From assembly GCA_913030835.1 (NCBI GenBank), contig CAJWDP010000016.1, positions 1 through 62,438 of the forward strand: a stretch of 62,438 bases of DNA, in the 5' to 3' direction. Below the pieces are notes generated by a model that was given only the letters and a program-made list of their open reading frames with translations, had not been told where the DNA came from and made no database searches. A program made the position numbers and the translations under genes. This stretch comes from an uncultured Flavobacteriales bacterium (lineage in GTDB: Bacteria > Bacteroidota > Bacteroidia > Flavobacteriales_D > Parvicellaceae). Shown here piece after piece: positions 20,779 to 44,797 of the stretch (position 1 is its first letter; every line of letters begins with the position of its first letter).

Positions 20779-22072
20779 GAAAAAGGTCTTAATTATATCT
20801 TATTACTGGCCCCCTGCCGGTGGCGTAGCTGTTCAGCGTTGGTACAAGTTTGCAACCTATCTTCCGGAGTTTGGTTATGAGCCTATAATTTTTACCGTAA
20901 AGGATGGTGAATTTGGTGCTTTAGATCATTCAAAAGATGACCTTTCGGATCGAATTACCGTGCTGAGAGAACCGATTTTAGAACCGTACAAACTGTACAA
21001 AAAGTTTACGGGAAAAAAGAGCGAAGACAAGATCAAACAAGAAGCTTTTTCGGGTAGTCAAGGTAAAGAAGGGTTGGCAGTATGGATTCGAGGTAATTTT
21101 TTCATTCCGGACGCAAGAAAATATTGGGTAAAGCGATCGGTTAAACGATTGAGCTCTTTTTTAAGAGAAAATCATGTAGATGCAATCATCAGTAACGGAA
21201 CACCACATTCCTGCCATCTGATTGGGATGAAACTAAAGAGAAAATTTAATATTCCATGGCTTGCAGACTTCAGGGACCCCTGGACCAAGGTCGATTACTT
21301 TGATGACCTTAAATTGACGAGTTTGGCTAGACGCAAACACTATAGACTGGAATACAATGTCCTGGAGAATGCAGATGCAGTCACTACGGTAAGTAAAACT
21401 TGGGAGCAGGACTTTGCTCAATTGGGCGCAAAAAATACGGCAACCATTACGAATGGTTTTGATAGAAGTGATTTTTCCGACTTGCATCATAAGGATTCAG
21501 ATAAATTTGTCATCACCCACCTTGGAACACTATCAAAATTCCGTTTTCATGAAGAGTTTTGGAATGGTATTCTTGAAAAGGTAAAGAAAGATCCGGCCTT
21601 TAAGCAGCAACTGGAAATTCGATTGATAGGTAACGTAGACGAGACTTTTTTCAGGTATTTTCATCGTACATCTCTAATAGAGAATGTAGTACACATATCG
21701 CATTTAGACCATAAGGAAGCACTTGCACATGCGGTTTCCAGCGACGCCTTGCTCTTGTTGTTAGGTCATAAATCCATGTCGGAGGGTAGAATTCCTGCCA
21801 AGGTGTTCGAATATTTGGCCGTTGCAAAACCCATTTTGGCTTATGGACAAAGTCCTAGCGATGTAGAAAAAATTATTTTGGAGTCGAATGCGGGAATATT
21901 TGTTCCATTCGATGACTCAAATGGCTTGAATAAAGCGCTTGACGAATTGTTTTTGCAGTTTAAAACAGGAAATACTTTGGTTGAACCGAAAGGAATTGAG
22001 AAATTTGAAAGAAAGAACCTAACTGCAGAACTCGCAAATGTTCTGGATGGCATAACAGGTAATGGCAATTAG
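20765..22072 (+). CDS. Glycosyltransferase, GT-B fold (family 4-like)
   Basis: A 435-residue cytosolic glycosyltransferase. The N-terminal Rossmann domain starts KVLIISYYWPPAGGVAVQRW, with the GG-x-x-x-Q-R loop that binds the acceptor and phosphates. The C-terminal donor domain contains THLGTLSKFR and the EGRIPAKVFEYLAVAKPI segment in place of the usual E-x7-E motif. It is in an overlapping series with the YfhO-like gene upstream and the PhyH-like gene downstream (11-base overlap). Donor and acceptor sugars cannot be told from sequence. Confidence 0.88.
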   Translation: MTTAKKKVLIISYYWPPAGGVAVQRWYKFATYLPEFGYEPIIFTVKDGEFGALDHSKDDLSDRITVLREPILEPYKLYKKFTGKKSEDKIKQEAFSGSQGKEGLAVWIRGNFFIPDARKYWVKRSVKRLSSFLRENHVDAIISNGTPHSCHLIGMKLKRKFNIPWLADFRDPWTKVDYFDDLKLTSLARRKHYRLEYNVLENADAVTTVSKTWEQDFAQLGAKNTATITNGFDRSDFSDLHHKDSDKFVITHLGTLSKFRFHEEFWNGILEKVKKDPAFKQQLEIRLIGNVDETFFRYFHRTSLIENVVHISHLDHKEALAHAVSSDALLLLLGHKSMSEGRIPAKVFEYLAVAKPILAYGQSPSDVEKIILESNAGIFVPFDDSNGLNKALDELFLQFKTGNTLVEPKGIEKFERKNLTAELANVLDGITGNGN

Positions 22073-22862
22073 CAGTTTAATAAAGGCATGGTCTTACATT
22101 CAGTTTGAAACGGTTAAGGACAAACTGAACAAAAAATCATTTGAATTAAGTTCAGGGGAAGCCTTTGAAAAAGCTGAGCAGATCAGGAAGGACGGTCTGT
22201 GCGTAATACCTGACTATTATTCTTCTGAAGTATGTGATGCCATGGTAGCAGAAATCGATCGGTTGATTGCTGAAGAGAAGGCAAATGTCTGGCAAGATGA
22301 TGAGGGTTCTGATACTCGGCTGTATGGATCTCACCTGTATTCTGATTTGATAGAACGGTTCCATACAGATCCGTTTTTGATTGAAATCGGAGAACGCTAT
22401 TTACGCTCGGAGCTGATCAATTCGCATACGCTGGGTGCAAAACTAATACCTAAGATGAACAATCTGGGTTCAGGCGGAGGATGGCATCGAGACAGTGTGT
22501 TTAAAAAGCAATACAAAAGTATTCTTTACCTGACCGATGTAGATGAGGAAAATGGGCCATTTCAATTCGTTATGGGGAGCCATAACAAGTCAACCATTTA
22601 TTCATCCATTAAAAGGAACGGATTCACTGCACATCAGAACAGAATTTCAAATGACAGTGTGAATACATTTTTGCAATCTCATCAGGGATTTGAGTCAAAA
22701 ATATGCGCGGCTTCGAAAGGAACAGTGATTTTAGTAGATACGAGTGGGATTCACCGGGGAATGCCAATAATAAAGGGAAGTCGATACGCCTTAACCAACT
22801 ACTTTTATCCGAAGCATCATTTCAATCAAAGACAGAAAGAAAAATTCCAAAAGCTCTTTTAG
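22062..22862 (+). CDS. Phytanoyl-CoA dioxygenase (PhyH)-like Fe/2OG oxygenase
   Basis: A 266-residue cytosolic protein with a complete Fe(II)/2-oxoglutarate oxygenase triad: His142-x-Asp144 in GGGWHRDSV, distal His231 in SGIHRGMP, and Arg241, likely the 2OG carboxylate binder, in GSRYALTNYF. Members of this family hydroxylate small molecules, lipids or sugars. Placed between a glycosyltransferase and a sugar-methyltransferase-like gene, it probably modifies a surface polysaccharide component or its precursor. That substrate is inferred from context only. Confidence 0.85.
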   Translation: MAISSLIKAWSYIQFETVKDKLNKKSFELSSGEAFEKAEQIRKDGLCVIPDYYSSEVCDAMVAEIDRLIAEEKANVWQDDEGSDTRLYGSHLYSDLIERFHTDPFLIEIGERYLRSELINSHTLGAKLIPKMNNLGSGGGWHRDSVFKKQYKSILYLTDVDEENGPFQFVMGSHNKSTIYSSIKRNGFTAHQNRISNDSVNTFLQSHQGFESKICAASKGTVILVDTSGIHRGMPIIKGSRYALTNYFYPKHHFNQRQKEKFQKLF

Positions 22863-22906: not shown

Positions 22907-23569
22907 ATGGAGCATTACAAAGTTGATTTAGACAAGAAATGGGATTACGAAAATGGATTCTACTTAACGTGTGAAACGGGCCGTATAGGAAAACTATTGA
23001 ACCATCTCGAAATCTATAAGAAGATCATGGATGTCCCGGGAGATATTCTGGAGTTTGGAGTGTATAAAGGAACGTCTTTGGTTAGATTGATGGCTTTTAG
23101 AGACTTATTAGAATCAACTCATTCAAGAAAAATAATTGGTTTCGACGCTTTTGGAAAGTTTCCGGATGACCTAACCCTCGAAAGTGATAAGGAGTTTGTA
23201 ACTAATTTTGAAGGTGCCGGCGGATATGGGGTTAGTAAAGAACATTTAAATGACCTGCTCAAGAATAAAAAGGTGGAGAATTACGAGCTAATTGAAGGAG
23301 ATATTTTAACTACTATTCCTGAATTTCTTGAGAAAAACACTTCGTTGAAAATAGCTCTCCTGCATATTGATGTTGATGTTTATGAGCCGACTAAAGTGAT
23401 TTTAGAAGCTCTATGGGATAAGATTGTTTCAGGTGGAATTCTGATGCTTGATGATTATGGTACTGTCGAAGGGGAAACTCAGGCGGTAGATGAATTTTTT
23501 GCTGGCAAAGGTGTTGAAATTCATAAGCCCAGATTCTATCACATACCATCGTACATTGTCAAGGATTAA
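22907..23569 (+). CDS. TylF/MycF-like class I methyltransferase
   Basis: A 220-residue SAM-dependent methyltransferase. The SAM loop is in GDILEFGVYKGTSLVRL at about 45-61. The metal-binding Asp residues of the TylF family appear in LLHIDVDVYEPT and MLDDYG. TylF-type enzymes methylate hydroxyls of sugars, suggesting O-methylation of a surface glycan. It is the last gene of the forward group from the YfhO-like gene. Its stop codon overlaps that of the convergent glycosyltransferase (shared TTAA). Confidence 0.85.
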   Translation: MEHYKVDLDKKWDYENGFYLTCETGRIGKLLNHLEIYKKIMDVPGDILEFGVYKGTSLVRLMAFRDLLESTHSRKIIGFDAFGKFPDDLTLESDKEFVTNFEGAGGYGVSKEHLNDLLKNKKVENYELIEGDILTTIPEFLEKNTSLKIALLHIDVDVYEPTKVILEALWDKIVSGGILMLDDYGTVEGETQAVDEFFAGKGVEIHKPRFYHIPSYIVKD

Positions 23570-25416
23570 ACTAGCTCGTCGGCGATTCGCTTACAAACTT
23601 GTCCGTCAATAGCGGTGGCACGGGCAACTACAAACTTTTTATACGCTTCATCATCTTTTTTGATCTTTCCGGCTAGAATTCCTGAAATGGTCGATTGCAT
23701 TTCATCGTAGTTCATTACTTCAACTCCCACACCATCTTTAATGAATCCGCCAAAATCGTTATCGTAGTAATTTAGGACAATCAAAGGCTTGTCGAAATAG
23801 GTAGTCTCTACACCCACTGTACTATTATAAACCAAAACCATATCAGCGATTGATAGCATTTTGTAGAGATCAGAACGATACACCTGAACATTCAATACGT
23901 CATGTTTCCTGGCAATGCCGGCAAAGAATTTCTCAGCATCATCTTCTTTAGGGTGAGGTTTTACAATGAAAAGATCGTTGGGGTGCTGTTTGGCTGTTTT
24001 AATGAAGTCTACTGCAAGCTGCTCTCGTTTTTCATGCTCACCGGGGTGAAGAAGCTGCGACCCATATAAAACAATTCTCTTATTAAAATTGATCCCAAAT
24101 TCATTTTTGGTCTGGGTAGTTTTTGTAAGAAGCTCGGGTATTGTATCCGTTCTGATTTGTCCTAGTTCCCTGACGATTTCTGGTGGATAGGCGGAATCTT
24201 TTGTTAATACATCCGACCAGAAACTTCCCCAAGTGAAAGTAACGTCTGGTAAAATTGATTTGGTCGGGGTTCCTTTTGAGAATATGTAATGAAGGTGCTT
24301 TGTATGAACTGACCCATGTTGAACCGCGAACGATTTTGATTTTCCTTTTTTCTTAACGGATTCAATAATGGATCTCATTCTTACATCGTGCTCATTAGAT
24401 CCACCAATCCATTCGGGTTTGAGAATAGCAAGGACCATATCTATGGCGGCCATTCTAACGGATAGAAATGAAATTAGTCTTTTGAATGAAGAGGATATAA
24501 CAGGAACGTGTTTTAAATCACCTTCTAATTTCAAGCTTGTAAAATGAGCAATGGCGCGCTTGGATGTTCTTAAGTACTTAGCCGCTTTGATGTAGAATAC
24601 TGGATTTATAACATTGAGAAAGAGCAAAGGTTCTATATAAACTTCGTTTCTGTATCTCGGAAATATCCCTCTCGAATTTAAATTTACCTTGATGCTGGAT
24701 TTCAAGGCAGGAGGAAAAAACTCGGTTAGATTAAGGTGCCTCTTCCGTTTAGCAAATTCTGCCTGTAACCCTTCGCTATATTGATCGCCATACTTTTCTG
24801 TCCCGTCGGGTAGTAGCACTTTTTGTGCGCTGTAGGCACTGGATACGAGAACATTTTTTCTTCTGATCAAGAGCTTTGGTAAAAGGAACCATCCAATAAA
24901 CAATCGGATATTCAAAGCAATCAGATACTTCAGCAAATTACCAAAGGTTTCGTTTTTCGGCTTTTCGAATGTTGCCTTTATTACCTCGATATGTGTAGGT
25001 ACGGCACTTTTTAAATAACCTGAATTCGACACAATTACAATTTTACCATTCCCAGTATTTTGATGGTGAAGCAGTATAGCTTTTAAGGAATAGTCATCGT
25101 AAAGTCGTTGACGAAATTTATAAAGGCACATGAATCGGAAGTAGTACCACCACGAGTTTCCATTATTGCTGATTTGTAACAGTTTAACAGGGTCTCTTTT
25201 TTCACCCGTGAGTTCCGAGATGTTAACCAGAATCGAAAAAGCGTTTTCAAAGGAGTCGACAAAGGCCTTAGAATTATCAAATATTTTAGCCTTGTAGCTT
25301 GAATCGAGCCAGGTTAAGTCACTGGTGTAGATACTGCAGTTAGCTCCATACGATTTGATAATTCTAAGTGTCTCATCAGACGGCTTAGATAGGATATAGA
25401 CTGATGTCTCTTCCAT
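23566..25416 (-). CDS. GT-B-type surface polysaccharide glycosyltransferase, candidate nonulosonate transferase
   Basis: A 616-residue protein with no signal peptide. The C-terminal half looks like a GT-B donor domain related to CDP-glycerophosphotransferases and capsule transferases: FAVQHGSVHTKH, a FTWGSFW strand, VLYGSQLLHPGEH, FIVKPHPKEDD and the VYNSTVGVETTYFDKP loop. The N-terminal 200 residues are less recognisable and include a hydrophobic patch at about 190. It starts eight bases after the KdsC-like phosphatase and ends the nonulosonate cassette, so a role in transferring the activated nonulosonate to a glycan is inferred. Family assignment is tentative. Confidence 0.65.
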   Translation of the reverse strand: MEETSVYILSKPSDETLRIIKSYGANCSIYTSDLTWLDSSYKAKIFDNSKAFVDSFENAFSILVNISELTGEKRDPVKLLQISNNGNSWWYYFRFMCLYKFRQRLYDDYSLKAILLHHQNTGNGKIVIVSNSGYLKSAVPTHIEVIKATFEKPKNETFGNLLKYLIALNIRLFIGWFLLPKLLIRRKNVLVSSAYSAQKVLLPDGTEKYGDQYSEGLQAEFAKRKRHLNLTEFFPPALKSSIKVNLNSRGIFPRYRNEVYIEPLLFLNVINPVFYIKAAKYLRTSKRAIAHFTSLKLEGDLKHVPVISSSFKRLISFLSVRMAAIDMVLAILKPEWIGGSNEHDVRMRSIIESVKKKGKSKSFAVQHGSVHTKHLHYIFSKGTPTKSILPDVTFTWGSFWSDVLTKDSAYPPEIVRELGQIRTDTIPELLTKTTQTKNEFGINFNKRIVLYGSQLLHPGEHEKREQLAVDFIKTAKQHPNDLFIVKPHPKEDDAEKFFAGIARKHDVLNVQVYRSDLYKMLSIADMVLVYNSTVGVETTYFDKPLIVLNYYDNDFGGFIKDGVGVEVMNYDEMQSTISGILAGKIKKDDEAYKKFVVARATAIDGQVCKRIADELV

Positions 25417-25424
25417 AAAGGAAA

Positions 25425-25946
25425 TTATTGGTTTAAGTGTTCGCCTTGTAGGTAAAGCTCTACTACTCTTTCCAATTCTCCTTCGCCTTTAAGGATGTCT
25501 TCTACAAATTCTCTGAAAGCCCCTTCACCGCCATTTTTGATGGTGCAATTGGAGACCCTGGCTTTAACATAATCTGGAGCAGAATTTACAGAATAGGCCG
25601 TTCCAACTTTTTCCAGAATCTTGATGTCGTTAATGTCATCCCCAATGTAGGCCACATCATTCCAGTTACATTGGTACTTTGAAAGAAGCTGCTCAACACA
25701 GGCAACTTTATCTTTCACGCCAAGATGCACCTCTTCTATACCTAGTTTCTTGGCTCGCCTGGCCACAATCTGGGTGTCTTCTCCGGTAATGATTCCGACA
25801 GGGATTTTTAAAATTCGGCACCAAAGAACCCCCGCACTGTCACTTGTATTGAATTTCTTAAGCTCGTCACCATCTTCAGAATAGAACATTCCTCCATCGG
25901 TCCAAACGCCATCAATATCACTAAGTATGAGTTTTGGAAGTGCCAT
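25425..25946 (-). CDS. KdsC-type HAD phosphatase (acyl/nonulosonate 9-phosphate phosphatase candidate)
   Basis: A 173-residue C0-type HAD hydrolase without cap domain. Catalytic Asp10 and Asp12 lie in SDIDGVWTDGG, motif II Thr54 in IITGED, motif III Lys in GVKDK, and motif IV Asp103-Asp104 in GDDIND. KdsC removes phosphate from Kdo-8-phosphate; close relatives act on Kdn-9-phosphate or Neu5Ac-9-phosphate. It sits directly behind a NeuB-like synthase with no gap, so the 9-phosphate of a nonulosonic acid is the likely substrate. This implies that the synthase uses a hexose 6-phosphate. Confidence 0.85.
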   Translation of the reverse strand: MALPKLILSDIDGVWTDGGMFYSEDGDELKKFNTSDSAGVLWCRILKIPVGIITGEDTQIVARRAKKLGIEEVHLGVKDKVACVEQLLSKYQCNWNDVAYIGDDINDIKILEKVGTAYSVNSAPDYVKARVSNCTIKNGGEGAFREFVEDILKGEGELERVVELYLQGEHLNQ

Positions 25947-26990
25947 TTATTGTATGAATTCGGGATAAATAATTTCGTTTTTGTTCAAATCCTTGGTCAT
26001 TTTCTGACCAACTAATTTGTCCTTATCAGCCCATTTGTAACCATCTCCTGGTGATAACAGATGGATGTCGTCCTCGGTTAAAACCTCACCGGCTTTTAAG
26101 TTCCGTTTTGAAGCAATGCTTCTTTCCAATTTGATTTGAGCCGGCTTAACATTTTCAACGATGTGAATTTCTTCATTACCTAAAGACATTTCGGTTAGTC
26201 TGATGTCTCTTATCATCCTGTTCACACCATCAGGACCTAACGAACCTTTTTGATCCGTTCCTTTCATTCTCCTGTCGATCGTAATGTGCTTTTCGATGAT
26301 CTCGGCACCTAAAGCTACGGCAAGTGCAGGAGAGGAGATACCAATTGTGTGATCTGAGTAGCCAATTTTGAATTCACCGTAATTTTTTTGCAAGTAATTG
26401 ATGGTTTTCAGATTTACATTTTCTGGTCGGGTTGGATATTCAGATACGCAATGCAAGATGCCCAAATCATTGTGATATTTAGTAATAATATCTATCGCAT
26501 CATCAAGCTCCTTTTTTCCCGCCATTCCTGTGGATATAATTAAGGGTAGCTTAGTCTGAGCCAATGCATCCAATAACGGGAGATTCGTCAAGTCTCTACT
26601 CGCTACTTTTAGATAGTCAGGCGTGAAGTAATTAAGAATATCTATACACGATAGACCGCATAGGGTTTCGACGAAATCAAGGCCTTTCGATTTAGCATAA
26701 TCAAAGCACTCTTTGTGTTCCTCGAAAGATAGCTCCAGAAATTCTCTGTGCTCTCCATAAGTTTTGCCAAATGAATTAGGCCCGGTATACGCTCTGTTCA
26801 TCTGACTGGCAGAAAGCTCTTCGCTGAGGTCCCTTTTTGTCATTTTAACCGCGTCTATACCCTTAAGCTCTGTATTGAAAAGACTTTCTTTAATCGGGAC
26901 TGACACCATATCGATTATTAGCTTGGCAATGTCCACTGAGCCATTATGGTTTTGGCCTATTTCACCAATTATGTAGGTACTCTTCATCAC
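25947..26990 (-). CDS. NeuB-like nonulosonate synthase
   Basis: A 347-residue enzyme of the sialic acid synthase family, condensing phosphoenolpyruvate with a hexose (or hexose phosphate) into a nine-carbon 2-keto acid. It shows the N-terminal TIM-barrel start IGEIGQNHNGS, LPLIISTGMAG, IGYSDHTIGI with the metal-binding His region, EKHITIDR, and a C-terminal SAF (antifreeze-like) domain from about residue 285. Two usually conserved spots differ: DAVKMTKRD where NeuB has DAVKFQ, and FVETLCGL where it has F-STPFD. This points to a divergent specificity. It overlaps the cytidylyltransferase by ATGA and abuts the phosphatase. Confidence 0.88.
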   Translation of the reverse strand: MMKSTYIIGEIGQNHNGSVDIAKLIIDMVSVPIKESLFNTELKGIDAVKMTKRDLSEELSASQMNRAYTGPNSFGKTYGEHREFLELSFEEHKECFDYAKSKGLDFVETLCGLSCIDILNYFTPDYLKVASRDLTNLPLLDALAQTKLPLIISTGMAGKKELDDAIDIITKYHNDLGILHCVSEYPTRPENVNLKTINYLQKNYGEFKIGYSDHTIGISSPALAVALGAEIIEKHITIDRRMKGTDQKGSLGPDGVNRMIRDIRLTEMSLGNEEIHIVENVKPAQIKLERSIASKRNLKAGEVLTEDDIHLLSPGDGYKWADKDKLVGQKMTKDLNKNEIIYPEFIQ

Positions 26991-27745
26991 TTGCTATTCG
27001 CCTTTATTTCCTGACTCATTTGTTCGAGAATATCTTCCCGACTTTTGGTGAATTTAATAAGATTAGGCGTATCGAAGTCCAATTCCAATACGAACTTTGA
27101 ATACAATTCTTTTAATAAGTTGAAATCGTGTTGAGTATCCAAAGTTAGCCTGACCTTCTCCGTATCATCATATGTACTCTGGACAGGAATCCATTCCACG
27201 GTAAACTTTTCGGTGTTTTTGTACAAGTAATTTGTCACATGCTCTGTGTAATAGGGATCCTGTGTCAATGCAGCAGCTTCGCGCAAAGCCGTCAATTTTA
27301 CCCCTTCCGCAAATAAGCCCAAATGGGATAAAATTGAAGGGGTTCCATTTGAAAATTGAAAAGAAACATAGTCCGCTGCAGAGGTCTCTAGTTTGGAGCG
27401 AAGAAGCTGCAGGCTTTCCATGTCAAGAAAGGGATTGTCTGCACAAATTCTTATGACTTTGGTAGATCCTAGCTGTTCGGTCGCTTGAATAAATCTGTCA
27501 AGAACATTGTTTTCACTTCCTCTGAAACAATTGATTTCCAGTTTGTTGGCAATTTCTTCAATTGCGTCATCTAGAGGTTCAGAAGATGTGGCAATACAAA
27601 TTGGTGTAGATGAGAATGAATCACGTATTCTTTCTGAAATGAGTTCAAGAATTCCCTGGGAACCATGGAAAGGTTGAATTACCTTCTGTGGCATTCTCGT
27701 AGAGCCCGTTCGGGCTTGAATTACTATTCCAATTTTATCTTCCAA
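26987..27745 (-). CDS. SpsF-like cytidylyltransferase
   Basis: A 252-residue nucleotidyltransferase of the SpsF/COG1861 type, with the phosphate-binding signature IQARTGSTRMPQK at 9-21, the metal-binding ICADNPFLD and the DTQHDFNLL segment near the C-terminus. SpsF works with the NeuB-like SpsE in spore coat sugar synthesis, and other members activate nonulosonates as CMP sugars. Here it is the first gene of the cassette with a NeuB-like synthase and a KdsC-like phosphatase, so formation of a CMP-nonulosonate is inferred. The promoter should lie in the 177-base divergent spacer at 27746-27922. Confidence 0.85.
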   Translation of the reverse strand: MEDKIGIVIQARTGSTRMPQKVIQPFHGSQGILELISERIRDSFSSTPICIATSSEPLDDAIEEIANKLEINCFRGSENNVLDRFIQATEQLGSTKVIRICADNPFLDMESLQLLRSKLETSAADYVSFQFSNGTPSILSHLGLFAEGVKLTALREAAALTQDPYYTEHVTNYLYKNTEKFTVEWIPVQSTYDDTEKVRLTLDTQHDFNLLKELYSKFVLELDFDTPNLIKFTKSREDILEQMSQEIKANSK

Positions 27746-27922: not shown

Positions 27923-28684
27923 ATGGGATTTAAATCGTTTTTACTTGAGAATTTGCCACGTCCTCTGGCCAAGAAGCTTTATCTAGTGAGGAACTATGAG
28001 ACTGTAATCGACTCGGAGATTCTTGATGGCTTTAAAGTACAACTGGGGGTGCCTGCCAGGAACAAGATTTGGATCGATAGATTGTCCAAGAAGGAAGGAC
28101 ACGAAGTGGCAATTTCGAGATGGATGAGAGATCTTGTTCAGCCCGGAGAAGTGGTATATGATATCGGTTCATGTTACGGTTATTTTCCTGCTTTGCTGGC
28201 TGCTGTGCACAAAAACATGAAGATTCATGCGTTCGAGGGAGATTGGAAGCAGCTGTATTTTCTTGAAAGGAATATTCCAAGGAATCAAAAGGATAGTGAA
28301 ACTAGAATAGTTTCTCGCTTCCTTGGCAAAACCTCGGAAAATGGACTGTTATCAGTTGACGATCACATCAAAGCGACGGATCAATCGCCTACGTTAATCA
28401 AAATGGATACGGATGGCGCAGAGTATGATATTTTGCTTGGTTCAAAAGACCTCATTGCCAAGAGAAGCGCTGAGTGGTTGATCGAAATACATCCAAATAT
28501 TTTGAAAAGCAAAGGAGTTGATCTTGCAATGATTCTAGACCTTTTTGGTGAAGGACATATCATAAAAGGACTTGTTGACCTTAGAGATGGCAATGAGTCT
28601 TGGGATGAAGATTTATCCAAGCTTGATTTAGATGACAACCCATACATCTATGTTTCTCCAAAGGAAATAGCTAGATTTAAATAA
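27923..28684 (+). CDS. FkbM-family methyltransferase
   Basis: A 253-residue SAM-dependent methyltransferase. The SAM loop is VVYDIGSCYGYF with Asp80, followed by the acidic strand IHAFEGD that would bind the ribose. Later come LIKMDTDGAEYDIL and WLIEIHP, both typical of FkbM proteins. FkbM enzymes O-methylate sugars or polyketides. It is the first gene of a forward trio (FkbM, FkbM, flippase) that diverges from the nonulosonate cassette, so glycan O-methylation is inferred. Confidence 0.85.
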   Translation: MGFKSFLLENLPRPLAKKLYLVRNYETVIDSEILDGFKVQLGVPARNKIWIDRLSKKEGHEVAISRWMRDLVQPGEVVYDIGSCYGYFPALLAAVHKNMKIHAFEGDWKQLYFLERNIPRNQKDSETRIVSRFLGKTSENGLLSVDDHIKATDQSPTLIKMDTDGAEYDILLGSKDLIAKRSAEWLIEIHPNILKSKGVDLAMILDLFGEGHIIKGLVDLRDGNESWDEDLSKLDLDDNPYIYVSPKEIARFK

Positions 28685-28685
28685 T

Positions 28686-29624
28686 ATGGCAAAGAGAAAA
28701 TTGGTAATCCATCAGGAAGCCATTACTGAATTTTTGAAAGAAAATAGAATGGTCGTTGTGGATGGCGGAGGCAGGGGTGCTCTGTTCCAACCTTTCGATC
28801 GAATACCACAAAATTTACGAACAGTGTTGCGGTTTGAACCTGATCCCGATGCTGAGATCATAAAGTCCGACAATGAGATTATTTTCAATAAAGGCCTCTG
28901 GAACAAGGAAGAAACGGTAAGCTTACATTTGGCAAAAGTTCCATCTACGTCATCAGTTTATCCTCCGAATAAACAATTGCTTGATCAGTTCGATGACCGA
29001 ATAGGCTTTCCACCAAGAGCTACACAAAACATTTTGAAAGTGGAAGGGATCAATATTGATGGGGCAATGCAGGGCGAAAACCTGTCCTCGATTGATTTTA
29101 TCAAATTGGATGTACACGGGGCAGAGTATGAAGCCATAGAAGGGGCATCAGGAGTTCTCAGTAATTCTTGTGTTGGATTAATGGTTGAATCATGGTTAGT
29201 CGAGGTGCATTCAGGTCAGCGATTAATTTTTGACGTCGAAAAAGAAATGGCTCGATATGGATACTACAAGTTTGGTAACACGCAAGTCATATCATGGCCA
29301 AGAAAGAGCACGGAAAAACTGCGAAGCAGAAAGCAGATCGTAGGCGAGGAGAATGTGTATTTGTTGTTGTGCAGCTCTGCTGAGGATGCAGAAAAGCTAG
29401 GAATGAAAAGAGCGCTAAAATTGTCCATAGTTGCTGATCTTTTCGGTTACACGGATTATGCAATTCAGATCATTGAATTGTGCCATAAAGCCGGGTTTTT
29501 GCCAAAAGAAGATTCGCTATCGATCGTGAACCATATCCAACGAAACAACAAGATGGGTTTCACCGATAAAGTGTTGACGAAAGCAATTCACGTACTCCAA
29601 AATAAAAGGGACAACAGATTATAA
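28686..29624 (+). CDS. Second FkbM-family methyltransferase
   Basis: A 312-residue protein beginning one base after the previous stop codon. The SAM-binding DGGGRGALFQPF (26-37), LRFEPDPDAE and DFIKLDVHGAEYEAIEG motifs place it in the FkbM family, but it is clearly different in sequence from its neighbour, so this is not a recent duplication. A C-terminal helical extension of about 70 residues follows the methyltransferase core. The last base overlaps the first of the flippase gene. Confidence 0.82.
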   Translation: MAKRKLVIHQEAITEFLKENRMVVVDGGGRGALFQPFDRIPQNLRTVLRFEPDPDAEIIKSDNEIIFNKGLWNKEETVSLHLAKVPSTSSVYPPNKQLLDQFDDRIGFPPRATQNILKVEGINIDGAMQGENLSSIDFIKLDVHGAEYEAIEGASGVLSNSCVGLMVESWLVEVHSGQRLIFDVEKEMARYGYYKFGNTQVISWPRKSTEKLRSRKQIVGEENVYLLLCSSAEDAEKLGMKRALKLSIVADLFGYTDYAIQIIELCHKAGFLPKEDSLSIVNHIQRNNKMGFTDKVLTKAIHVLQNKRDNRL

Positions 29625-37892: not shown

Positions 37893-38825
37893 TTATCTAG
37901 CGTATTCTAAGATGGACTTGATACCCTCATCAAGGCTGGTGGTGGGCTTGAATCCAGTGAATCGCATGAGCTTGTCGGATGAACCTACACGTCTTCCCAC
38001 CTCGTAGTCATAACGTTTTGCCGGTGCATTGATCAGAGTAATTTCTGACTTTGATTCTGTAAACACACGAATTTTTTCTGCCAATGTGGATATGTCCGAC
38101 TCTAATTCGTTGGCTACGTTGAATATTTCAAACCCTGTGACGTTACTTGCTAATTTAATGGTTGCTTTAATGGTATCGTCGATGTAAGTGAAATCTCTTG
38201 TTTGTTTTCCTGACCCATACACTGTGATCGACCTTCCAGCCTTTGCTTGCTCAATGAATCTAGGTACCACCATCCTGCTATCTTGCCTTGGACCGTATAC
38301 ATTAAAAAATCGAAGGCAAATGCAATCGATTCCTTTTTCCTCCTGAAGAGAAGCCAAATAGATTTCATTGTATCGTTTGGCCATTGCATAAGAAGTTGTA
38401 GGATCGACTAAAATTTCTTCCGTCACCGTTTGTTCCAAAGCATTATGACCATAAACACCGCTGGTAGAGGCATAGATTATCTTGGAAATATTATTCTGTA
38501 ATGCTGCACGAACTACATTTTGGGTTCCAATGACTTCAGTTTCCATGGTTTCCATGGGATTGTCAGCTACAATATCAACACCCAGAATTGCAGCAAAATG
38601 AAAAATCATGTCGCAGCCAATGCTCGCTTCCAGAACTTGGTTGAAATCATTTACGTCAGCTTTTATGAAAGTAATCTTCTTGAAAACATCGGAAACAATT
38701 TTATTTCCTCTCAATAAATTGTCCAGAACAACTACTTCATTTCCTAAACCAACAAGGGCTTCAACCAGATGACTTCCTATAAATCCGGCTCCGCCCGTTA
38801 TTAATATCTTTTTATTTGAAATCAA
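37893..38825 (-). CDS. NAD-dependent sugar epimerase/dehydratase (extended SDR)
   Basis: A 310-residue extended short-chain dehydrogenase. It shows the NAD-binding GGAGFIGSH at 11-19, the catalytic Tyr146-x3-Lys150 (SYAMAK) with Ser/Thr near 120 (YASTSGVYG), RFFNVYGPRQ, and the substrate-binding VYGSGKQTRDFTYIDD. This fits UDP-glucose 4-epimerase-like or UDP-glucuronate epimerase/decarboxylase-like enzymes, which form nucleotide sugars for surface glycans. The exact reaction cannot be fixed. It heads the leftward group continuing from the glycosyltransferases at 38.9-42.3 kb. Confidence 0.88.
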   Translation of the reverse strand: MISNKKILITGGAGFIGSHLVEALVGLGNEVVVLDNLLRGNKIVSDVFKKITFIKADVNDFNQVLEASIGCDMIFHFAAILGVDIVADNPMETMETEVIGTQNVVRAALQNNISKIIYASTSGVYGHNALEQTVTEEILVDPTTSYAMAKRYNEIYLASLQEEKGIDCICLRFFNVYGPRQDSRMVVPRFIEQAKAGRSITVYGSGKQTRDFTYIDDTIKATIKLASNVTGFEIFNVANELESDISTLAEKIRVFTESKSEITLINAPAKRYDYEVGRRVGSSDKLMRFTGFKPTTSLDEGIKSILEYAR

Positions 38826-38912
38826 TTACATCAACTAATGAGGTATAAACATAAGCATAATAGACGAATAGGTCCTCATAAGAATCTAAGTTTAGAGATA
38901 CTCTGAATTTTG

Positions 38913-40031
38913 TTACCGGGACATGATCTCAGTGTACAATTTTACATAGTTGTCCCACATGGTTTGGATAGAAAACAATTTTTCTGCTTTTTCTTTTGCT
39001 CTTTTAGCCATTAGTTCAGCATCATTGCTCATCATAAATAGAACCCCTTCGGCCAGCGAATCAGGGTCATAATAATTGGCCAGCCACCCGTTATTTTTGT
39101 GTTCGATGAGGTCTAGCGCTGAGCCGGTTGGAGTAGAAACGATCGGAACTCCGTTGCCCGCGGCCTCGGGTATAACAAAACCGAACGGTTCCATGTAGCT
39201 GCCGTGCAGATATATATCCAAACATTGGTACGCGGTTGGAATGATCCTTTTTTCAATGCGCCCTACTAGAATGATATGATTTTCTAGGTTTTTGGATTTG
39301 ATGTAGTCCGCGAGCTCTTGCTCCTGTTCGCCCCCACCAACACACAATAGCAAGACATTTGGTATTTTCTTTCTCAGGATTTCAATTGCATCGATCATAT
39401 CGAAATATCTTTTCCACTCGATGTACCTGGATACCGTGCCGATCACAAATTTGTCTTCCAAATTGTACTTTCTCCTGAATTCTGCCCGATCTTCCGGAGT
39501 TGATCTTGTTGTGGTGTCAAATGAAACTCCGTGCGGAATAAATGAGATCTTTCCTTCAGGCGCCAATTCCTTTTCGATTAAAAAGGTTTTATTCTCGGAG
39601 GATATCGCTATCAGATCTGTTGCCCACTGATTGATTTTACGGTCGAATTTCACCCCTTTTTTTGCATAATTCCAATGAAATCCGGTGCATTGTTTTGTGT
39701 GTATTCGTCCCTTTATATTCAGTTTTTTGCCCGCGTAATGACAAATAAGGGCATCCTCGAATAAATTAGTGTGGATGATGTCGGGATTTAATTTTTTGAG
39801 TAAAGCTTTCGTTTGTCTGTAAACAGAATACAGCTTCTTTTTCCTGGAATGATAAGGATACTTTATCCAATGAACATCCGGATTATTATTAGGATAATTA
39901 GCCTTTGGTCGATCATCACATAAATGCACAAATGTTAGCTGGAAAGGACAATTGTTTTGTGTGTGAAGTGCGGCAAATTCATTGAAGTAATGGACATCAG
40001 CGTTAAAAGCGATAATCAATACGACATGCAT
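38913..40031 (-). CDS. Family 4 glycosyltransferase
   Basis: A GT-B glycosyltransferase of 372 residues when started at MHVVLIIAF; an upstream in-frame ATG (40070) would give 385. The donor domain shows VIGTVSRYIEWKRYFDMIDA, LLCVGGGEQEQEL, and YLHGSYMEPFGFVIPEAAGNGVP as the E-x7-E motif. It is the most canonical GT4 enzyme of the region and sits last in the leftward run 44.8 to 38.9 kb. Substrates are unknown. Confidence 0.9.
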   Translation of the reverse strand: MHVVLIIAFNADVHYFNEFAALHTQNNCPFQLTFVHLCDDRPKANYPNNNPDVHWIKYPYHSRKKKLYSVYRQTKALLKKLNPDIIHTNLFEDALICHYAGKKLNIKGRIHTKQCTGFHWNYAKKGVKFDRKINQWATDLIAISSENKTFLIEKELAPEGKISFIPHGVSFDTTTRSTPEDRAEFRRKYNLEDKFVIGTVSRYIEWKRYFDMIDAIEILRKKIPNVLLLCVGGGEQEQELADYIKSKNLENHIILVGRIEKRIIPTAYQCLDIYLHGSYMEPFGFVIPEAAGNGVPIVSTPTGSALDLIEHKNNGWLANYYDPDSLAEGVLFMMSNDAELMAKRAKEKAEKLFSIQTMWDNYVKLYTEIMSR

Positions 40032-40091
40032 GTTTGAAGATATTTCGTATTTGTTATTTGTCAATTTCAACGGGTTAGGGTTTAAAATTAA

Positions 40092-41207
40092 CTACTCGCG
40101 CAGTAATTCACTCAAATGTTCGCCAATATCAGTCAACATCTTATCGAAAAGATACTTTTTTGAGTACTCAATTCTTTTTGCTGGTTGAATCTCATCTTCT
40201 CCTTTTTTAAAGTAGTGATCCATTAATTCAAGTAGTTCATTGTGATCATTGCTCATGTATATGATGTCTCCAAGCTCCTTGTACGCATGAAATACAGGGC
40301 TGAATATTGGCTTGCCTTGTGCTAAATATCCCAGTGTTTTATGATTGGATATGGTATTAGGAATGTGTTTTACGTCCAGAAATGAAATGCAGAAATCGGC
40401 TAAATGAATAAAATATTTCAATTCTTTGTAATGGCGTGGCCCGATTGCTAAAGCATTGGGGTATTTTTTCTCAGTAAAAATTCTTTGCGCCGCATCATTT
40501 GTTTCAGGCAATTGTACTGGACCCACGAACAAAAAGTTAATGTGATTGAATTTTTTAAGTGCTTTTTCTACCAAACTAAAATCCATTCTATAGTCGATAG
40601 CTCCAGTGTAAAGTCCATATCGTTTGAACGGTAATTTAATCTTTTCAAGTTGATCCGCTGAAATAATGTATTCGTCTTTGGATATTCCATGTGGGATGTG
40701 GTATGTTGGTTTGTTGTAATGCGAATATCCTTCAATTAGTTTCGGTGAGGTGGCAAGTATCACATCAGAGTTATCGTACAGCTTATGCGAACCAAAATGT
40801 TCCGGACCATACATATCCACATAATGAAAAATTCCAAGTCGCGCCCCTAGCAATTTTGCATCATATAAGCGATGTGGATCAAATGTCCATACTATGTAAT
40901 CGTTAAAATGATTTTTCTTAATCCATTTGCGCAATCTTTTGGATATGATCTTGTTGTTCCATTGATCTAGCTGTTTCGTTCTCACAGGTAATGGATTGCC
41001 ATAGTCCAGAATATGGAGCGTGTCGCTGTATTGAGTCGTTCTAATTCGGCTGGTTAAAATCGAAATCGGCGACCACTTTTTCACCGGATTCAAGAACAGC
41101 ACCTGATTGTTTCGGGAAAGCTCAAACGCATAATTTTGTTTCGAATACCAAACGTCGCCCCATGGTTCGTTAGAAATAATAAGTATGCTTTTTCCCTTCA
41201 GATTCAT
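40092..41207 (-). CDS. GT-B glycosyltransferase (family 1/4-like)
   Basis: A 371-residue protein starting SILIISNEPWGDVWYSKQNY and containing a HYVDMYGPEHFG loop, VILATSPKLIEGY, YHIPHGISKDEY and GLYTGAIDYRMD. The later DVKHIPNTISNHKTLGYLAQGKPIF part corresponds to the donor-binding loop. Such proteins resemble the GT1/GT4-type glycosyltransferases of exopolysaccharide clusters. The start codon overlaps the upstream gene's stop (ATGA), so translation is coupled. Base composition is visibly AT-richer than in the rpoBC region. Confidence 0.8.
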   Translation of the reverse strand: MNLKGKSILIISNEPWGDVWYSKQNYAFELSRNNQVLFLNPVKKWSPISILTSRIRTTQYSDTLHILDYGNPLPVRTKQLDQWNNKIISKRLRKWIKKNHFNDYIVWTFDPHRLYDAKLLGARLGIFHYVDMYGPEHFGSHKLYDNSDVILATSPKLIEGYSHYNKPTYHIPHGISKDEYIISADQLEKIKLPFKRYGLYTGAIDYRMDFSLVEKALKKFNHINFLFVGPVQLPETNDAAQRIFTEKKYPNALAIGPRHYKELKYFIHLADFCISFLDVKHIPNTISNHKTLGYLAQGKPIFSPVFHAYKELGDIIYMSNDHNELLELMDHYFKKGEDEIQPAKRIEYSKKYLFDKMLTDIGEHLSELLRE

Positions 41208-42322
41208 TTACTTATTGCACTGTAAATTTTTATGATCTGCTCAATTGAGTCGCAAAGATTAGCATGGTTTCGGACCACGTTGGATGCGTTTTCAATTTGT
41301 TCCGATAGCTTTGCCTTGTCCATTTCATAGATTCTTTTCATTTCCAATGCCAGCGTATGATGGTCAGAATTGGATAGCTGGGACACCGTTTTTTGATTGA
41401 ACAGATCATTGTCATAGGTCGCTGTTCCCAAAATTACTGGAACTTTGCAAAGCATCGCTTCTAATGCTGTATTTGGAGTCCCGTCTGATTTGGGTATCAT
41501 CACTACTTGGTTGGCTGAAGCGTATTGTTGCATAAGGTCCTTGAATCCAAGCTCCTGAATAAATTCAACATTTTTTTTCAATCCTAGCCCTTCACAAATT
41601 TGTTTTACTTTTCTGCTGTAGTCCGAGTCATTGGAAAGCATAACCAGCTTCGCATTTTCGCAATAGCTAAGAAAAATATGAAAAGCTTTTACGATGATAT
41701 CCAGGTTGTAGATAAGCCTTGGTTCTCTTGGTGAGAAGATGGTATATGATTCATTTCTTCTTGATTCTGATTTTTGAAGAGTCAAGTCAATTTTCGCCAC
41801 ATCCACACCGGTGCGAATTATTTGAACTTCCGATGATGTTAAATGTTTTATCCTTTCTTTTTGCAAATTCGAAGTGCAGGTGACAAATTGCGCATTTTCC
41901 AAAGCCAGCTTCCCTTCCTTGTTGAAATGCCTGTTAATTAACGGTTTGAATTTCGACGTTACATTATGGTAATTATTTGGATATTCAACAAGAATGTCCG
42001 ATCCTCTGGTAGTTATTACATGAGGCTTAAAACCCGATTGATTCGCCCATATTGAATTGGGAAAAAGGTACATGGAATGAATTACATCCGGTTGGAAATT
42101 AGTTATGATTTCTCTTATCTGATCTAGTGTTTCTTTTCTGTTTCGCGTTTTATACGAGTAGGGAGGAAGAATCTTATGGAGTCGAATTCCACTGTTTAGT
42201 TGGTTGACTCGGTTTACGTTTGAGGCAATTACTTCTACCTCATTTTCTATTGCAATTTGGTTGATCCATTTACAATCATGATGGGAATTTTCAGAAGAGA
42301 AAAAGAGCACTTTCATTATCAA
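41204..42322 (-). CDS. Family 4 glycosyltransferase
   Basis: A 372-residue GT-B glycosyltransferase. It opens MKVLFFSSENSHHDCKWINQ (the third residue is also Met and may be the start). Other motifs are DVIHSMYLFPNSIWA, ITTRGSDILV, IIRTGVDV and the donor motif MIPKSDGTPNTALEAMLCKVP, which includes the acidic pair. It lies between the flippase and another glycosyltransferase, overlapping the latter by four bases. Sugar specificity is unknown. Confidence 0.9.
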   Translation of the reverse strand: MIMKVLFFSSENSHHDCKWINQIAIENEVEVIASNVNRVNQLNSGIRLHKILPPYSYKTRNRKETLDQIREIITNFQPDVIHSMYLFPNSIWANQSGFKPHVITTRGSDILVEYPNNYHNVTSKFKPLINRHFNKEGKLALENAQFVTCTSNLQKERIKHLTSSEVQIIRTGVDVAKIDLTLQKSESRRNESYTIFSPREPRLIYNLDIIVKAFHIFLSYCENAKLVMLSNDSDYSRKVKQICEGLGLKKNVEFIQELGFKDLMQQYASANQVVMIPKSDGTPNTALEAMLCKVPVILGTATYDNDLFNQKTVSQLSNSDHHTLALEMKRIYEMDKAKLSEQIENASNVVRNHANLCDSIEQIIKIYSAISK

Positions 42323-42413
42323 TAGGAAATTCTCTTGATTATTCGCATGTTCTCTTAGTGTCCTTTATTGTATGTGATGAAGGTCGATTGGGTATTCATT
42401 TTTCATGTTAATC

Positions 42414-43754
42414 TTACTTATCGTTTCTACCCAATAAACCGGGAATCATGAGAGTGAAAACCCTTATTCCAATACCCTCTTTTTTTGCTACTCTCCACAT
42501 ATAGCCTAAACATACTAAAAAAATGCTGAAATAGGTGACGTTTGTTGCCCATGAGGCCCCTACAATTCCGAACTTGGGAATCAGCAGATAATCCAATATT
42601 AATGTTACAAGTAAACCAACGATTGTGCCGATTAGATTGACAGTTACCCTGCCTTTTGCAAAAATAAACGAGGCCATGGTTTTTGATAATGAACCAAAAA
42701 ATATTCCGATCAATAAAAGCTGGAAAGGCAGCACAGAAGCTTCGAATTCTGCACCATATAACTCAGGGATTAGAATCGGGGCCAGAATGAGGCCAATTAT
42801 TATGCAAATACTTGTCAAGAGCGTGTTAAGCCGAGTTATTTTTATCGTTGTGGAAATGGATGGATTTTCACAAAGTCGAGGGAAATAAACCAGATTTATG
42901 GCGGTCGGAATTTGCCAGATGATCTGAGATAACGTAACGGCAATAAGATAAAAGCTCAGTAGGTCAAATGCTTCAAAAAAGAAGTAGGATATAAACCAAA
43001 TGTCAATTCTGTAATTGAAGAAGTTGATCACGTTTGATAAATGCCCAATCAAGGCAAAACGGATCATTGGTTTAAAATCATCTTTGATGCTGAAGCGAAC
43101 GATCCTTAGATTTTCTTTGCGAATTGTGCGTAGTACAAAATAAATCAGTGGTGAGATGGTAATCACGTTGGATAAGATGAGCAATTGAATAACAAGCGTA
43201 AAATGTTCTGTTTGCTGCAACTGATCATTGGTGAACAGGTAAAGAAATAAGGGTGTAATGGCCATAAAATTGACAAGGGCAATGATGAGTGTGTTGACAT
43301 TGATCCACTTGATTTTTTGATACCCTTGCAGGAATGCAATAGCCATTAGCTTAAATACCTGGAAAAAAAAGGTCAGAAAAAAATAGAGCACAACAGTCGG
43401 ACCCAAGAATTCCGGTGAATAAACGATCAAACTGTATCCAAAAGCATCAATGGTGAAATAGGCCACCAATGCAACAACAAGTGCCGAAGCAAGCAGAAAT
43501 GCGGAAATAGACAGTACCTTTTCTGGCTTGATTTTTTTATTAGAAATAAAATAAGTGATTGCGCTACCTAGGCTTAAGCCAAGTATCAGTACCAAAAGCT
43601 CAATATTGAAGGAGATCAAACCTAGAACTCCCTTTCCGGTTGGTCCCAGTATCTGAACGATAAATATACCAACTAGAAATGATGATATTAGCCCTGGCAG
43701 GGCCACCATTAGGGTCTGAAAAATGTGATTGCTGAATAGGTTTTTCAGTCTCAT
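42414..43754 (-). CDS. Wzx-type polysaccharide flippase
   Basis: A 446-residue integral membrane protein with about 12-14 hydrophobic helices, opening MRLKNLFSNHIFQTLMVALPG and containing FIVQILGPTGKGVLGLISF, a typical oligosaccharide-flippase element. It would export lipid-linked glycan units. The frame is open further upstream to 43862, but ATG 43754 makes a clean ATGA overlap with the stop of wecE and gives a normal N-terminus. It is the second flippase of the window, in a different operon from the one at 29624. Confidence 0.87.
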   Translation of the reverse strand: MRLKNLFSNHIFQTLMVALPGLISSFLVGIFIVQILGPTGKGVLGLISFNIELLVLILGLSLGSAITYFISNKKIKPEKVLSISAFLLASALVVALVAYFTIDAFGYSLIVYSPEFLGPTVVLYFFLTFFFQVFKLMAIAFLQGYQKIKWINVNTLIIALVNFMAITPLFLYLFTNDQLQQTEHFTLVIQLLILSNVITISPLIYFVLRTIRKENLRIVRFSIKDDFKPMIRFALIGHLSNVINFFNYRIDIWFISYFFFEAFDLLSFYLIAVTLSQIIWQIPTAINLVYFPRLCENPSISTTIKITRLNTLLTSICIIIGLILAPILIPELYGAEFEASVLPFQLLLIGIFFGSLSKTMASFIFAKGRVTVNLIGTIVGLLVTLILDYLLIPKFGIVGASWATNVTYFSIFLVCLGYMWRVAKKEGIGIRVFTLMIPGLLGRNDK

Positions 43755-44797
43755 TTTGTATTTGCTTTCATGAACGCTTCGAACACCAGCATTTGATTTT
43801 TCGATTCCAGAGACAATCTGCAAATATTTTTCGTTTTGTACGCGACAGAATTTGGGTCGCAATTACTTAACAATTGATAGTGCCCCAGAGCATAATGCAT
43901 TTTTTCATGGCTCAGTCCATTATCTATAACCCAGAAAATATGTCCATTGTGCCCAACGCATCCTGTAGAAAATTCCATTTCGGAAAATTCATTTGTGAAA
44001 AACTCCAAATAATTGTTCCAGACCAGTAATCTCTGGTCAGTAGCTTCATTCAACTGCTGCAGCTGAGCCCATAAAAATGCAGCATTAATTTCGCTCATTA
44101 AATAGCTTGAGCCAACATCAATTTTTTTGTAAAACGGAATCTCTCCTCGTAGGAATTTACTTCGGTTTGTTCCCTTCTCTCGAATTACTTCAGCTCGTTC
44201 TAGTAGATCTCTATTGTTTATCAGGATTGCACCGCCCTCTCCACAATGAATATTCTTGGTTTCATGGAAGCTGATGCAACCAATGTCTCCAATGCTTCCC
44301 AGATGTTTGCCGTCCTGGAATGAGTTGATGCACTGCGCAGCATCCTCAACCACGAAAAGTCCATTGGATCGGGCAATTTCTAGGATCATGCTCATGTTAC
44401 ATCCTACGCCGCCATAGTGCATTGGGACGATGACTTTTGTGCGGTCAGTGATCAGTCCTTGAATTAACGTTTCATCTATATTCAAGGTGTCTGGTCGAAT
44501 GTCGCAATACACCACTTTAGCTCCCCTCAATTCGAATGCGTTGGCGGTGCTGGAAAAGGTAAATGGAGACATGATTACTTCGTCACCGGGCTGAACATCC
44601 AATAGAAGCGCAGCCATTTCAAGGGCTGCTGTACACGATGGGGTAAGTAGAGCTTTCGTCTTGGTTAAATTTTCAAGAAATTCAGTGCATCTTTTACCAA
44701 ATAACCCGTCCCCTGAGAAATGAGTTCCATTGTCAATTACTTCTTGAATATATTTACTTTCGTTTCCAGATAAATAGGGAATGTGAAATGGGGTCAT
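43751..44797 (-). CDS. dTDP-4-amino-4,6-dideoxygalactose transaminase-like (WecE/RffA), compact C-terminus
   Basis: A 348-residue PLP-dependent sugar aminotransferase of the DegT/DnrJ family. It strongly resembles WecE/RffA, which converts dTDP-4-keto-6-deoxyglucose into dTDP-Fuc4N. Examples are LTPSCTAALEMAALLLD, PDTLNIDETLI, SFHETKN with the PLP lysine at 181 (same number as in E. coli), and GGAILIN. It is shorter than the 376-residue relative: the FHYIPLH segment before the C-terminus is missing, though the end still reads like the family (ICRLSLE). Its start codon is only three bases from that of rdgB on the other strand. Dehydratase and acetyltransferase partners are not in the window. 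Confidence 0.82.
   Translation of the reverse strand: MTPFHIPYLSGNESKYIQEVIDNGTHFSGDGLFGKRCTEFLENLTKTKALLTPSCTAALEMAALLLDVQPGDEVIMSPFTFSSTANAFELRGAKVVYCDIRPDTLNIDETLIQGLITDRTKVIVPMHYGGVGCNMSMILEIARSNGLFVVEDAAQCINSFQDGKHLGSIGDIGCISFHETKNIHCGEGGAILINNRDLLERAEVIREKGTNRSKFLRGEIPFYKKIDVGSSYLMSEINAAFLWAQLQQLNEATDQRLLVWNNYLEFFTNEFSEMEFSTGCVGHNGHIFWVIDNGLSHEKMHYALGHYQLLSNCDPNSVAYKTKNICRLSLESKNQMLVFEAFMKANTK

Follow-up and report, generated by a model that had tools for sequence, protein, structure and literature searches.

The question raised by this locus is which surface sugar is made by a compact cassette of four genes. The cassette lies on the minus strand at positions 23566-27745 of a 62,438-nucleotide stretch of DNA (the window) from an uncultured Flavobacteriales bacterium. 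The window lies on contig 16 (CAJWDP010000016.1) of a genome of 3.14 Mb in 86 contigs (GCA_913030835.1). In order of transcription the genes encode an SpsF-like cytidylyltransferase, a NeuB-family synthase, a KdsC-like HAD phosphatase and a GT-B type glycosyltransferase. With a probability of about 80%, estimated from sequence, the operon encodes a three-enzyme route to the cytidine monophosphate (CMP) derivative of ketodeoxynonulosonic acid (Kdn), of the Bacteroides thetaiotaomicron type. From the observed gene order, enzyme families, synthase clade and conserved residues we infer the substrate, the product and the donor of the glycosyltransferase. The synthase (25947-26990) would convert mannose-6-phosphate and phosphoenolpyruvate to Kdn-9-phosphate, the phosphatase (25425-25946) would yield Kdn, the SpsF-like enzyme (26987-27745) would form CMP-Kdn, and the GT-B protein (23566-25416) would transfer Kdn from CMP-Kdn to a surface polysaccharide. 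Mannose-6-phosphate would be provided by an isomerase of the phosphoglucose isomerase/phosphomannose isomerase (PGI/PMI) type, encoded elsewhere in the genome. An earlier note on this DNA had proposed a 9-phosphate route as in the Kdn pathway of B. thetaiotaomicron, and four lines of evidence supported that proposal: the model score and the residues of the phosphatase, and the clade and active site of the synthase.

The phosphatase scored 226.6 bits on the NCBI equivalog model NF058599 (KDN-9-PPhBT), over the cut-off of 180. Its closest solved chain was 3e81 (E 3e-49), and the variants 4hgq and 4hgr were also among its best relatives. We take the 3e81 group to be the Kdn-9-phosphate phosphatase of B. 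thetaiotaomicron, an enzyme reportedly described by Daughtry et al. in 2013, and residues 56 and 67 presumably set its specificity. Compared with 3e81, the deposited chain 4hgq differs at residue 56 (Ala) and 4hgr at residues 56 and 67 (both Ala). The window phosphatase has Glu56 and Lys67, and both were kept in all 83 rows of an alignment of cassette phosphatases (82 distinct sequences, as L126 repeats L039; no row was dropped). At the same positions the second KdsC-like protein of the genome, encoded on contig 36, has Gly and Tyr, 3mn1 has Arg and Ser, and 2p9j has Arg and Glu. The protein encoded at 25425-25946 is probably a Kdn-9-phosphate phosphatase.

The synthase gene gave the only NeuB match in the whole genome. 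Among 395 genomes of the phylum a gap in identity was observed: at least nine genomes, including its own, had a protein at least 55% identical to the synthase and at least three had one at 40-47%, while the other matches listed were at most 42% identical. In a synthase phylogeny, as suggested in the earlier note, the window protein grouped with the Bacteroides-type synthase in a single clade that comprised 88 rows, left 25 rows outside and had a support of 99 (Shimodaira-Hasegawa-like approximate likelihood ratio test, quick tree). The 88 rows include one repeated locus; only the synthase part of fusion proteins was used, and seven distant NeuB-like fusions were left out. Within this clade is the synthase of locus L124, which adjoins a phosphatase 99% identical to 3e81 and is itself 65% identical to the window synthase. 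The sister of the clade consists of three proteins with an SpsF-like domain fused in front of the synthase.

Six catalytic and metal-site positions of NeuB (Glu10, Lys49, Lys128, His214, Glu233 and His235) were kept in all 88 rows. Three other positions, which belong to the 13 ligand contacts of NeuB given in an extract of PMC6795526, where Arg314 is said possibly to place the N-acetyl group, were replaced throughout the clade or nearly so. Gln55 of NeuB corresponds to Thr51 in 87 of the 88 rows (L140 has Gln), and Phe112 and Arg314 correspond to Cys111 and Ser313 in every row. In 18 other homologues of the phylum, Gln55, Phe112 and Arg314 were kept in 18, 17 and 17 proteins. Two of these residues, Gln55 and Arg314, contact N-acetylmannosamine (ManNAc) in NeuB, and the window synthase has neither, carrying Thr51 and Ser313. 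The segments KRDL (52-55) and SFGxTYGEHR (73-82) were nearly invariant across the clade and may bind the phosphate; both presumably resemble segments of the human 9-phosphate synthase. On these grounds the protein encoded at 25947-26990 is probably a Kdn-9-phosphate synthase. For BT1714, the synthase of B. thetaiotaomicron, PMC6200933 tabulates mannose-6-phosphate with a Km of 1.4 mM.

The nearest solved chain to the SpsF-like protein was 6oew, a cytidylyltransferase (E 1.6e-30), and KdsB models gave only weak matches, all below cut-off. This protein is probably the CMP-Kdn synthetase. The earlier note had correctly recorded an SpsF-like gene, but regarded it as a replacement of the usual NeuA. 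Related loci were compared with the window; 80 titled loci were kept from 152, and the presence of genes was recounted by tblastn, as counts based on open reading frames (ORFs) miss genes lying under over-extended ORFs (e.g. in L102 and L046). SpsF is the usual partner here and not an oddity, because an SpsF-like gene lies upstream of the synthase in 66 of the 80 loci; it does so in L124 as well. The SpsF-like domain was also seen in fusion proteins. Ahead of a 9-phosphate-type synthase it is fused in one reading frame in L011 (751-2496), L012 (1450-3243) and L013 (1456-3327), with a Kdn-type phosphatase gene close by in L011 and L012. The domain follows a distant NeuB-like barrel in proteins of 553-606 residues in L054 (4238-5998), L074 (4329-5996), L075 (8288-9949), L099 (475-2142) and L100 (3900-5720), each adjoining a Kdn cassette without a stand-alone SpsF gene. 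A protein of similar length is found in L137 and L138, where only the barrel was matched.

The GT-B protein encoded at 23566-25416 is probably a CMP-Kdn transferase, since its remote family sits just after the phosphatase in related cassettes. A profile of the protein (positions 52-543) matched a cluster that in nine loci is encoded directly behind the phosphatase (probability 98.9, E 1.2e-17), and the C-terminal part of the profile matched two more clusters (probabilities 95.9 and 97.6), making three matches among 21 clusters compared. When the window protein and eleven relatives were combined in one profile, 28 ORFs were found, 16 of them outside the profile build. Thirteen of these 16 lie one or two genes downstream of a phosphatase (seven from near-identical loci) and three lie elsewhere. 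This bias in position argues against the competing explanation, that the protein transfers another sugar of the same polysaccharide and not Kdn, which is somewhat less probable. The competing explanation gains from the presence of the remote family in 24 of 87 other cassettes, so that the remaining cassettes would depend on other transferase families. It also gains from the fold, which is generic for GT-B proteins: matches of the AlphaFold model were led by UDP-N-acetylglucosamine (UDP-GlcNAc) 2-epimerases, and TagF, TarL and MurG were also listed. The nucleotide-binding half of the model, on the other hand, matches the domain of WaaA that binds CMP-Kdo (4bfc, Z 16.8, root-mean-square deviation 2.7 over 160, rank 34; Kdo, 3-deoxy-D-manno-octulosonic acid). 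Confidence in the model is low as far as residue 310 or so (mean predicted local distance difference test score 64) and good only beyond that, from about residue 311; its alignment to GT-B chains spans residues 184-616 approximately.

Named families were of little help in this assignment. Pfam matches of the GT-B protein to Epimerase_2, Glyphos_transf, Capsule_synth and DUF6716 were all below cut-off, and the BFO_1060-family glycosyltransferase model NF046086 gave 68.9 bits, short of its cut-off of 200, over residues 461-615 only. With no Pfam or NCBIfam match above cut-off and no solved chain found by phmmer at E up to 1, a close relationship of the protein to a named family was rejected. A search of solved chains with a profile of 15 homologues gave 3dzc, a UDP-GlcNAc 2-epimerase, at E 7.7e-6, followed by 8csb and 5fa0 at E 0.005-0.006 and KpsC (8fuw) at E 0.86; we take 5fa0 to be the Kdo-transferase part of WbbB. 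Nor did the genes after the phosphatase share a named transferase family: 57 of 68 such genes were scanned with Pfam and NCBIfam (the 11 left out belong to the same clusters as kept ones), and the commonest Pfam family was DUF4910 (6/57), the commonest NCBIfam family reached 3/57, and A-2_8-polyST 2/57. The link to Kdn therefore rests on the profile comparison. The motifs KPHP (486-489), ST (532-533) and QH(G) (366-368) were observed, with no clear D/E-D/E-G motif seen; Pro489 was invariant in the 15 aligned homologues, and the His of KPHP was absent in two (L042 and L104). Bacterial CMP-sialic-acid transferases of families GT-38, GT-52 and GT-80 have D/E-D/E-G and HP motifs, the latter tied to binding of CMP-N-acetylneuraminic acid, according to part of PMC2169525. 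Proteins with a TagB domain are named as candidate pseudaminic and legionaminic acid transferases in Tannerella in a section of PMC7439481.

A TylF-type methyltransferase gene (22907-23569, plus strand) is convergent with the transferase gene, and genes of this type recur in related cassettes. Among 87 cassettes examined, 80 had a called phosphatase, and in 27 of these a single ORF lies between synthase and phosphatase: 12 are hexapeptide acyltransferase-like, seven TylF-type, four glycosyltransferase-2-like and four single others (the acyltransferase-like and glycosyltransferase-2-like types were read from sequence). In L094, a locus in which no phosphatase was seen, the gene directly after the synthase is an eighth of the TylF type. 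Searched against 1115 ORFs of 95 stretches (94 distinct), a profile of these eight TylF genes had the window gene as its only further match (E 3e-30, 30-34% identity). Transferase and TylF genes occur together in the Kdn cassettes of four loci, from Brumimicrobium salinarum, a Vicingaceae genome and two Flavobacterium genomes. The TylF-type protein of the window is a possible Kdn O-methyltransferase. TylF-type genes are ordinary in polysaccharide loci, and its place beside the transferase gene is for that reason a hint, not proof, of Kdn methylation. Methylated Kdn has a precedent in a reported Sinorhizobium fredii structure with 5-O-methyl Kdn, listed among the references of PMC9000132. More tentatively, the transferase and TylF proteins of the window might be diverged counterparts of those in the four loci, within the same but rearranged five-gene set, and the locus might make an O-methylated Kdn that is displayed by GT-B CMP-Kdn transferases of a new family. 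The 12 cassettes mentioned above have a hexapeptide acyltransferase-like gene at the corresponding position; if the idea is right, Kdn would serve throughout Bacteroidota as a surface sugar that is modular and decorated.

Several observations weigh against the Kdn assignment. The synthase stayed below the cut-offs of both NeuB-family equivalog models, with 254.3 bits on NeuB_NnaB (TIGR03569, cut-off 399.65) and 214.6 bits on PseI (TIGR03586, cut-off 340.25). The three members of the fusion sister group also have Cys111, Lys287 and Ser313, and at position 51 two of them keep Gln. As a result Thr51 alone comes close to being specific to the Kdn clade, and we infer that it is the best candidate determinant of the choice of mannose over N-acetylmannosamine. 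The synthase also differs from NeuB at Phe288 (Lys here), Asn74 and Asn184, but these differences say little because the positions vary in other homologues too. The GT-B protein was found by direct search in five of 390 genomes of the phylum, its own included, and no Kdn synthase was present within the 15-16 kb fetched around its four direct homologues. Three of the four genomes (G013, G034 and G131) do have a synthase of the Kdn clade on another contig, and count as one case because all are of one genus. Type I phosphomannose isomerase was not found in the genome with two models, one of which, PF01238, is a poor probe that gave a match in just 2 of 14 control genomes. The supply of mannose-6-phosphate consequently rests on a PF10432 (PGI/PMI-type) gene elsewhere in the genome (E 4.5e-47), which could be its source; proteins of this type can be bifunctional. 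A PF01050 match exceeded its cut-off with 34.8 bits, yet covered just positions 40-112 of 116, in a 139-residue frame, and is a doubtful sign of a type II isomerase. Finally, synthases can be promiscuous: in the table of PMC6200933 the human enzyme is entered with both mannose-6-phosphate and ManNAc-6-phosphate.

The two substrates of the human enzyme also speak for an N-acetylneuraminic acid (Neu5Ac) route, in which the synthase would use ManNAc-6-phosphate to form Neu5Ac-9-phosphate, as in animals. This route is unlikely. It would follow the same 9-phosphate logic and could draw on two Epimerase_2 genes, both over cut-off and on other contigs of the genome, but no match to NanE was found in the genome (ManNAc kinase was not searched for). 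The synthase does contain the stretch TYGEH, which we take to be present in the human 9-phosphate synthase as well; the replacement of Gln55 by Thr in nearly the whole clade and the score of the phosphatase on the Kdn-9-phosphate model point the other way. The earlier note had left mannose-6-phosphate and ManNAc-6-phosphate side by side as substrates. Mannose-6-phosphate is the favoured acceptor, with ManNAc-6-phosphate ranked lower because NanE is without a match, and the precursor genes fit this choice without proving it. The absence of a NeuC/epimerase or legionaminate gene, also noted earlier, holds for the cassette, but the genome has the two Epimerase_2 genes, and the window has genes for an NAD-epimerase family protein (37893-38825) and a DegT aminotransferase (43751-44797).

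A slightly less probable reading again has Kdn enzymes reused for some other nine-carbon ulosonic acid, starting from a different hexose-6-phosphate. The gene found between synthase and phosphatase in 27 of 80 cassettes suggests that products may vary, yet the window cassette has no isomerase or epimerase gene, and its synthase and phosphatase agree with the Bacteroides pair. That the phosphatase and synthase serve Kdo synthesis is very improbable: the phosphatase does score 140.1 bits on the broad KdsC/YrbI model, over its cut-off of 106.95, but this reading was dropped because the genome has the second KdsC-like gene on contig 36, without Glu56 and Lys67, and the synthase, moreover, is of the NeuB family with a SAF domain. 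Related synthases such as Kdo-8-phosphate synthase are without the AFP-like domain, as stated in an extract of PMC6795526.

The cassette proposed here for Kdn was found almost exclusively in Bacteroidota: of the 80 synthase relatives that were kept, 79 carry a Bacteroidota title and one a Treponema title. Both an SpsF-like gene and a phosphatase lie beside the synthase in 64 of the 80 loci, whereas 12 are without the SpsF-like gene only, two without the phosphatase only and two without both. Three of these absences could not be seen, as the contigs of L040 and L103 start within 300 bases of the synthase and that of L096 ends just after it. In eight loci without the SpsF-like gene (seven from Prevotella/Prevotellaceae) a gene of cluster c14, cytidylyltransferase-like as read from sequence, follows the phosphatase or the synthase, and in five an SpsF-like domain and a distant NeuB-like barrel share one protein. 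Six Prevotella-type loci (L038, L046, L048, L052, L053 and L057) have the c14 gene, and in most of them two conserved genes that may modify the sugar, c19 and c25, come next. A phosphatase that matched 3e81 with an E value of 1e-40 or less was present in 44 of 158 genomes of the genus to which B. gallinarum belongs. The Treponema parvum record (L062, Spirochaetota) has a full cassette with a synthase 70% identical to that of the window and placed inside the Bacteroidota clade, probably as a result of lateral transfer. Kdn-containing capsules are apparently uncommon among bacteria according to an extract of PMC9000132, and a section of PMC12413058 states that B. thetaiotaomicron can make Kdn and that its capsule structure is uncharacterised. 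The occurrence of the SpsF-synthase-phosphatase set in 64 of 80 loci, nearly all from Bacteroidota, suggests that Kdn is commoner than reported, and the GT-B family with its bias in position provides named candidates for the Kdn transferase.

The genes of the cassette are tightly packed. The earlier note had described four contiguous, overlapping minus-strand genes; number, strand and contiguity were as described, but the SpsF-like and synthase genes, with 4 base pairs (bp) in common, are the sole overlapping pair. Synthase and phosphatase genes abut, 8 bp separate the phosphatase and transferase genes, and the stop of the transferase gene overlaps the convergent TylF gene by 4 bp. The SpsF-like protein has 252 residues with a TTG start as listed (Pfam CTP_transf_3, 90.2 bits), and the synthase 347 residues with a GTG start followed by ATG as codon 2 (Pfam NeuB 223.3 and SAF 39.8 bits). 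The phosphatase has 173 residues (Pfam HAD hydrolase), the GT-B protein 616 residues including an N-terminal extension, and the TylF-type protein matched Pfam TylF with 69 bits. Promoter and terminator scans gave no more matches than shuffled sequences, and the cassette did not stand out by GC content within 12000-47000. Genes for a PhyH-type dioxygenase and two FkbM-type methyltransferases lie close by on the plus strand (22062-22862 and 27923-29624). A second block at 37893-44797 contains the NAD-epimerase family and DegT aminotransferase genes together with glycosyltransferases. One protein of the window carries a Por secretion tail.

Compared with known systems, the window has the same three enzyme families as the Kdn pathway of B. 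thetaiotaomicron (BT1714 synthase and phosphatase), which was reportedly described by Wang et al. in 2008. The gene order is the same in L124, whose SpsF, synthase and phosphatase are 38%, 65% and 56% identical to those of the window. After the phosphatase the two differ, the window having the 616-residue GT-B protein with the convergent TylF gene and L124 a 392-residue ORF; in L124 a 419-residue ORF precedes SpsF and weakly matches the window transferase (35% over 89 residues, E 2.6e-4). The Neisseria-type NeuB pathway to Neu5Ac shares the synthase family and the catalytic residues, but the window differs from it in having a phosphatase, in the replacement of Gln55, Phe112 and Arg314 and in a score below the NeuB_NnaB cut-off. 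The legionaminic acid pathway of Bacillus subtilis (sps) likewise has a cytidylyltransferase gene, spsF, and a NeuB-family synthase, SpsE, and its SpsF and the SpsF-like protein of the window are presumably one family. The window cassette, however, is without legionaminate precursor genes and has a dedicated phosphatase, and its synthase is distant (1vli, E 2.8e-34). The KdsA/KdsB/KdsC pathway to Kdo shares the KdsC-like phosphatase and, through the weak KdsB matches below cut-off, some likeness to the SpsF-like protein; it differs in the synthase family, in the Glu56/Lys67 phosphatase of the window and in the second KdsC-like gene elsewhere in the genome. Searches with narrow terms in the open-licence literature, outside which most subscription journals lie, found no paper on a Kdn transferase or on methyl-Kdn in Bacteroidota, and extracts of PMC6200933, PMC9000132 and PMC12413058 already describe the Kdn pathway for B. 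thetaiotaomicron. The CMP-Kdn pathway is known and the enzyme that attaches Kdn is not; the transferase family and the link to the methyltransferase are the new parts.

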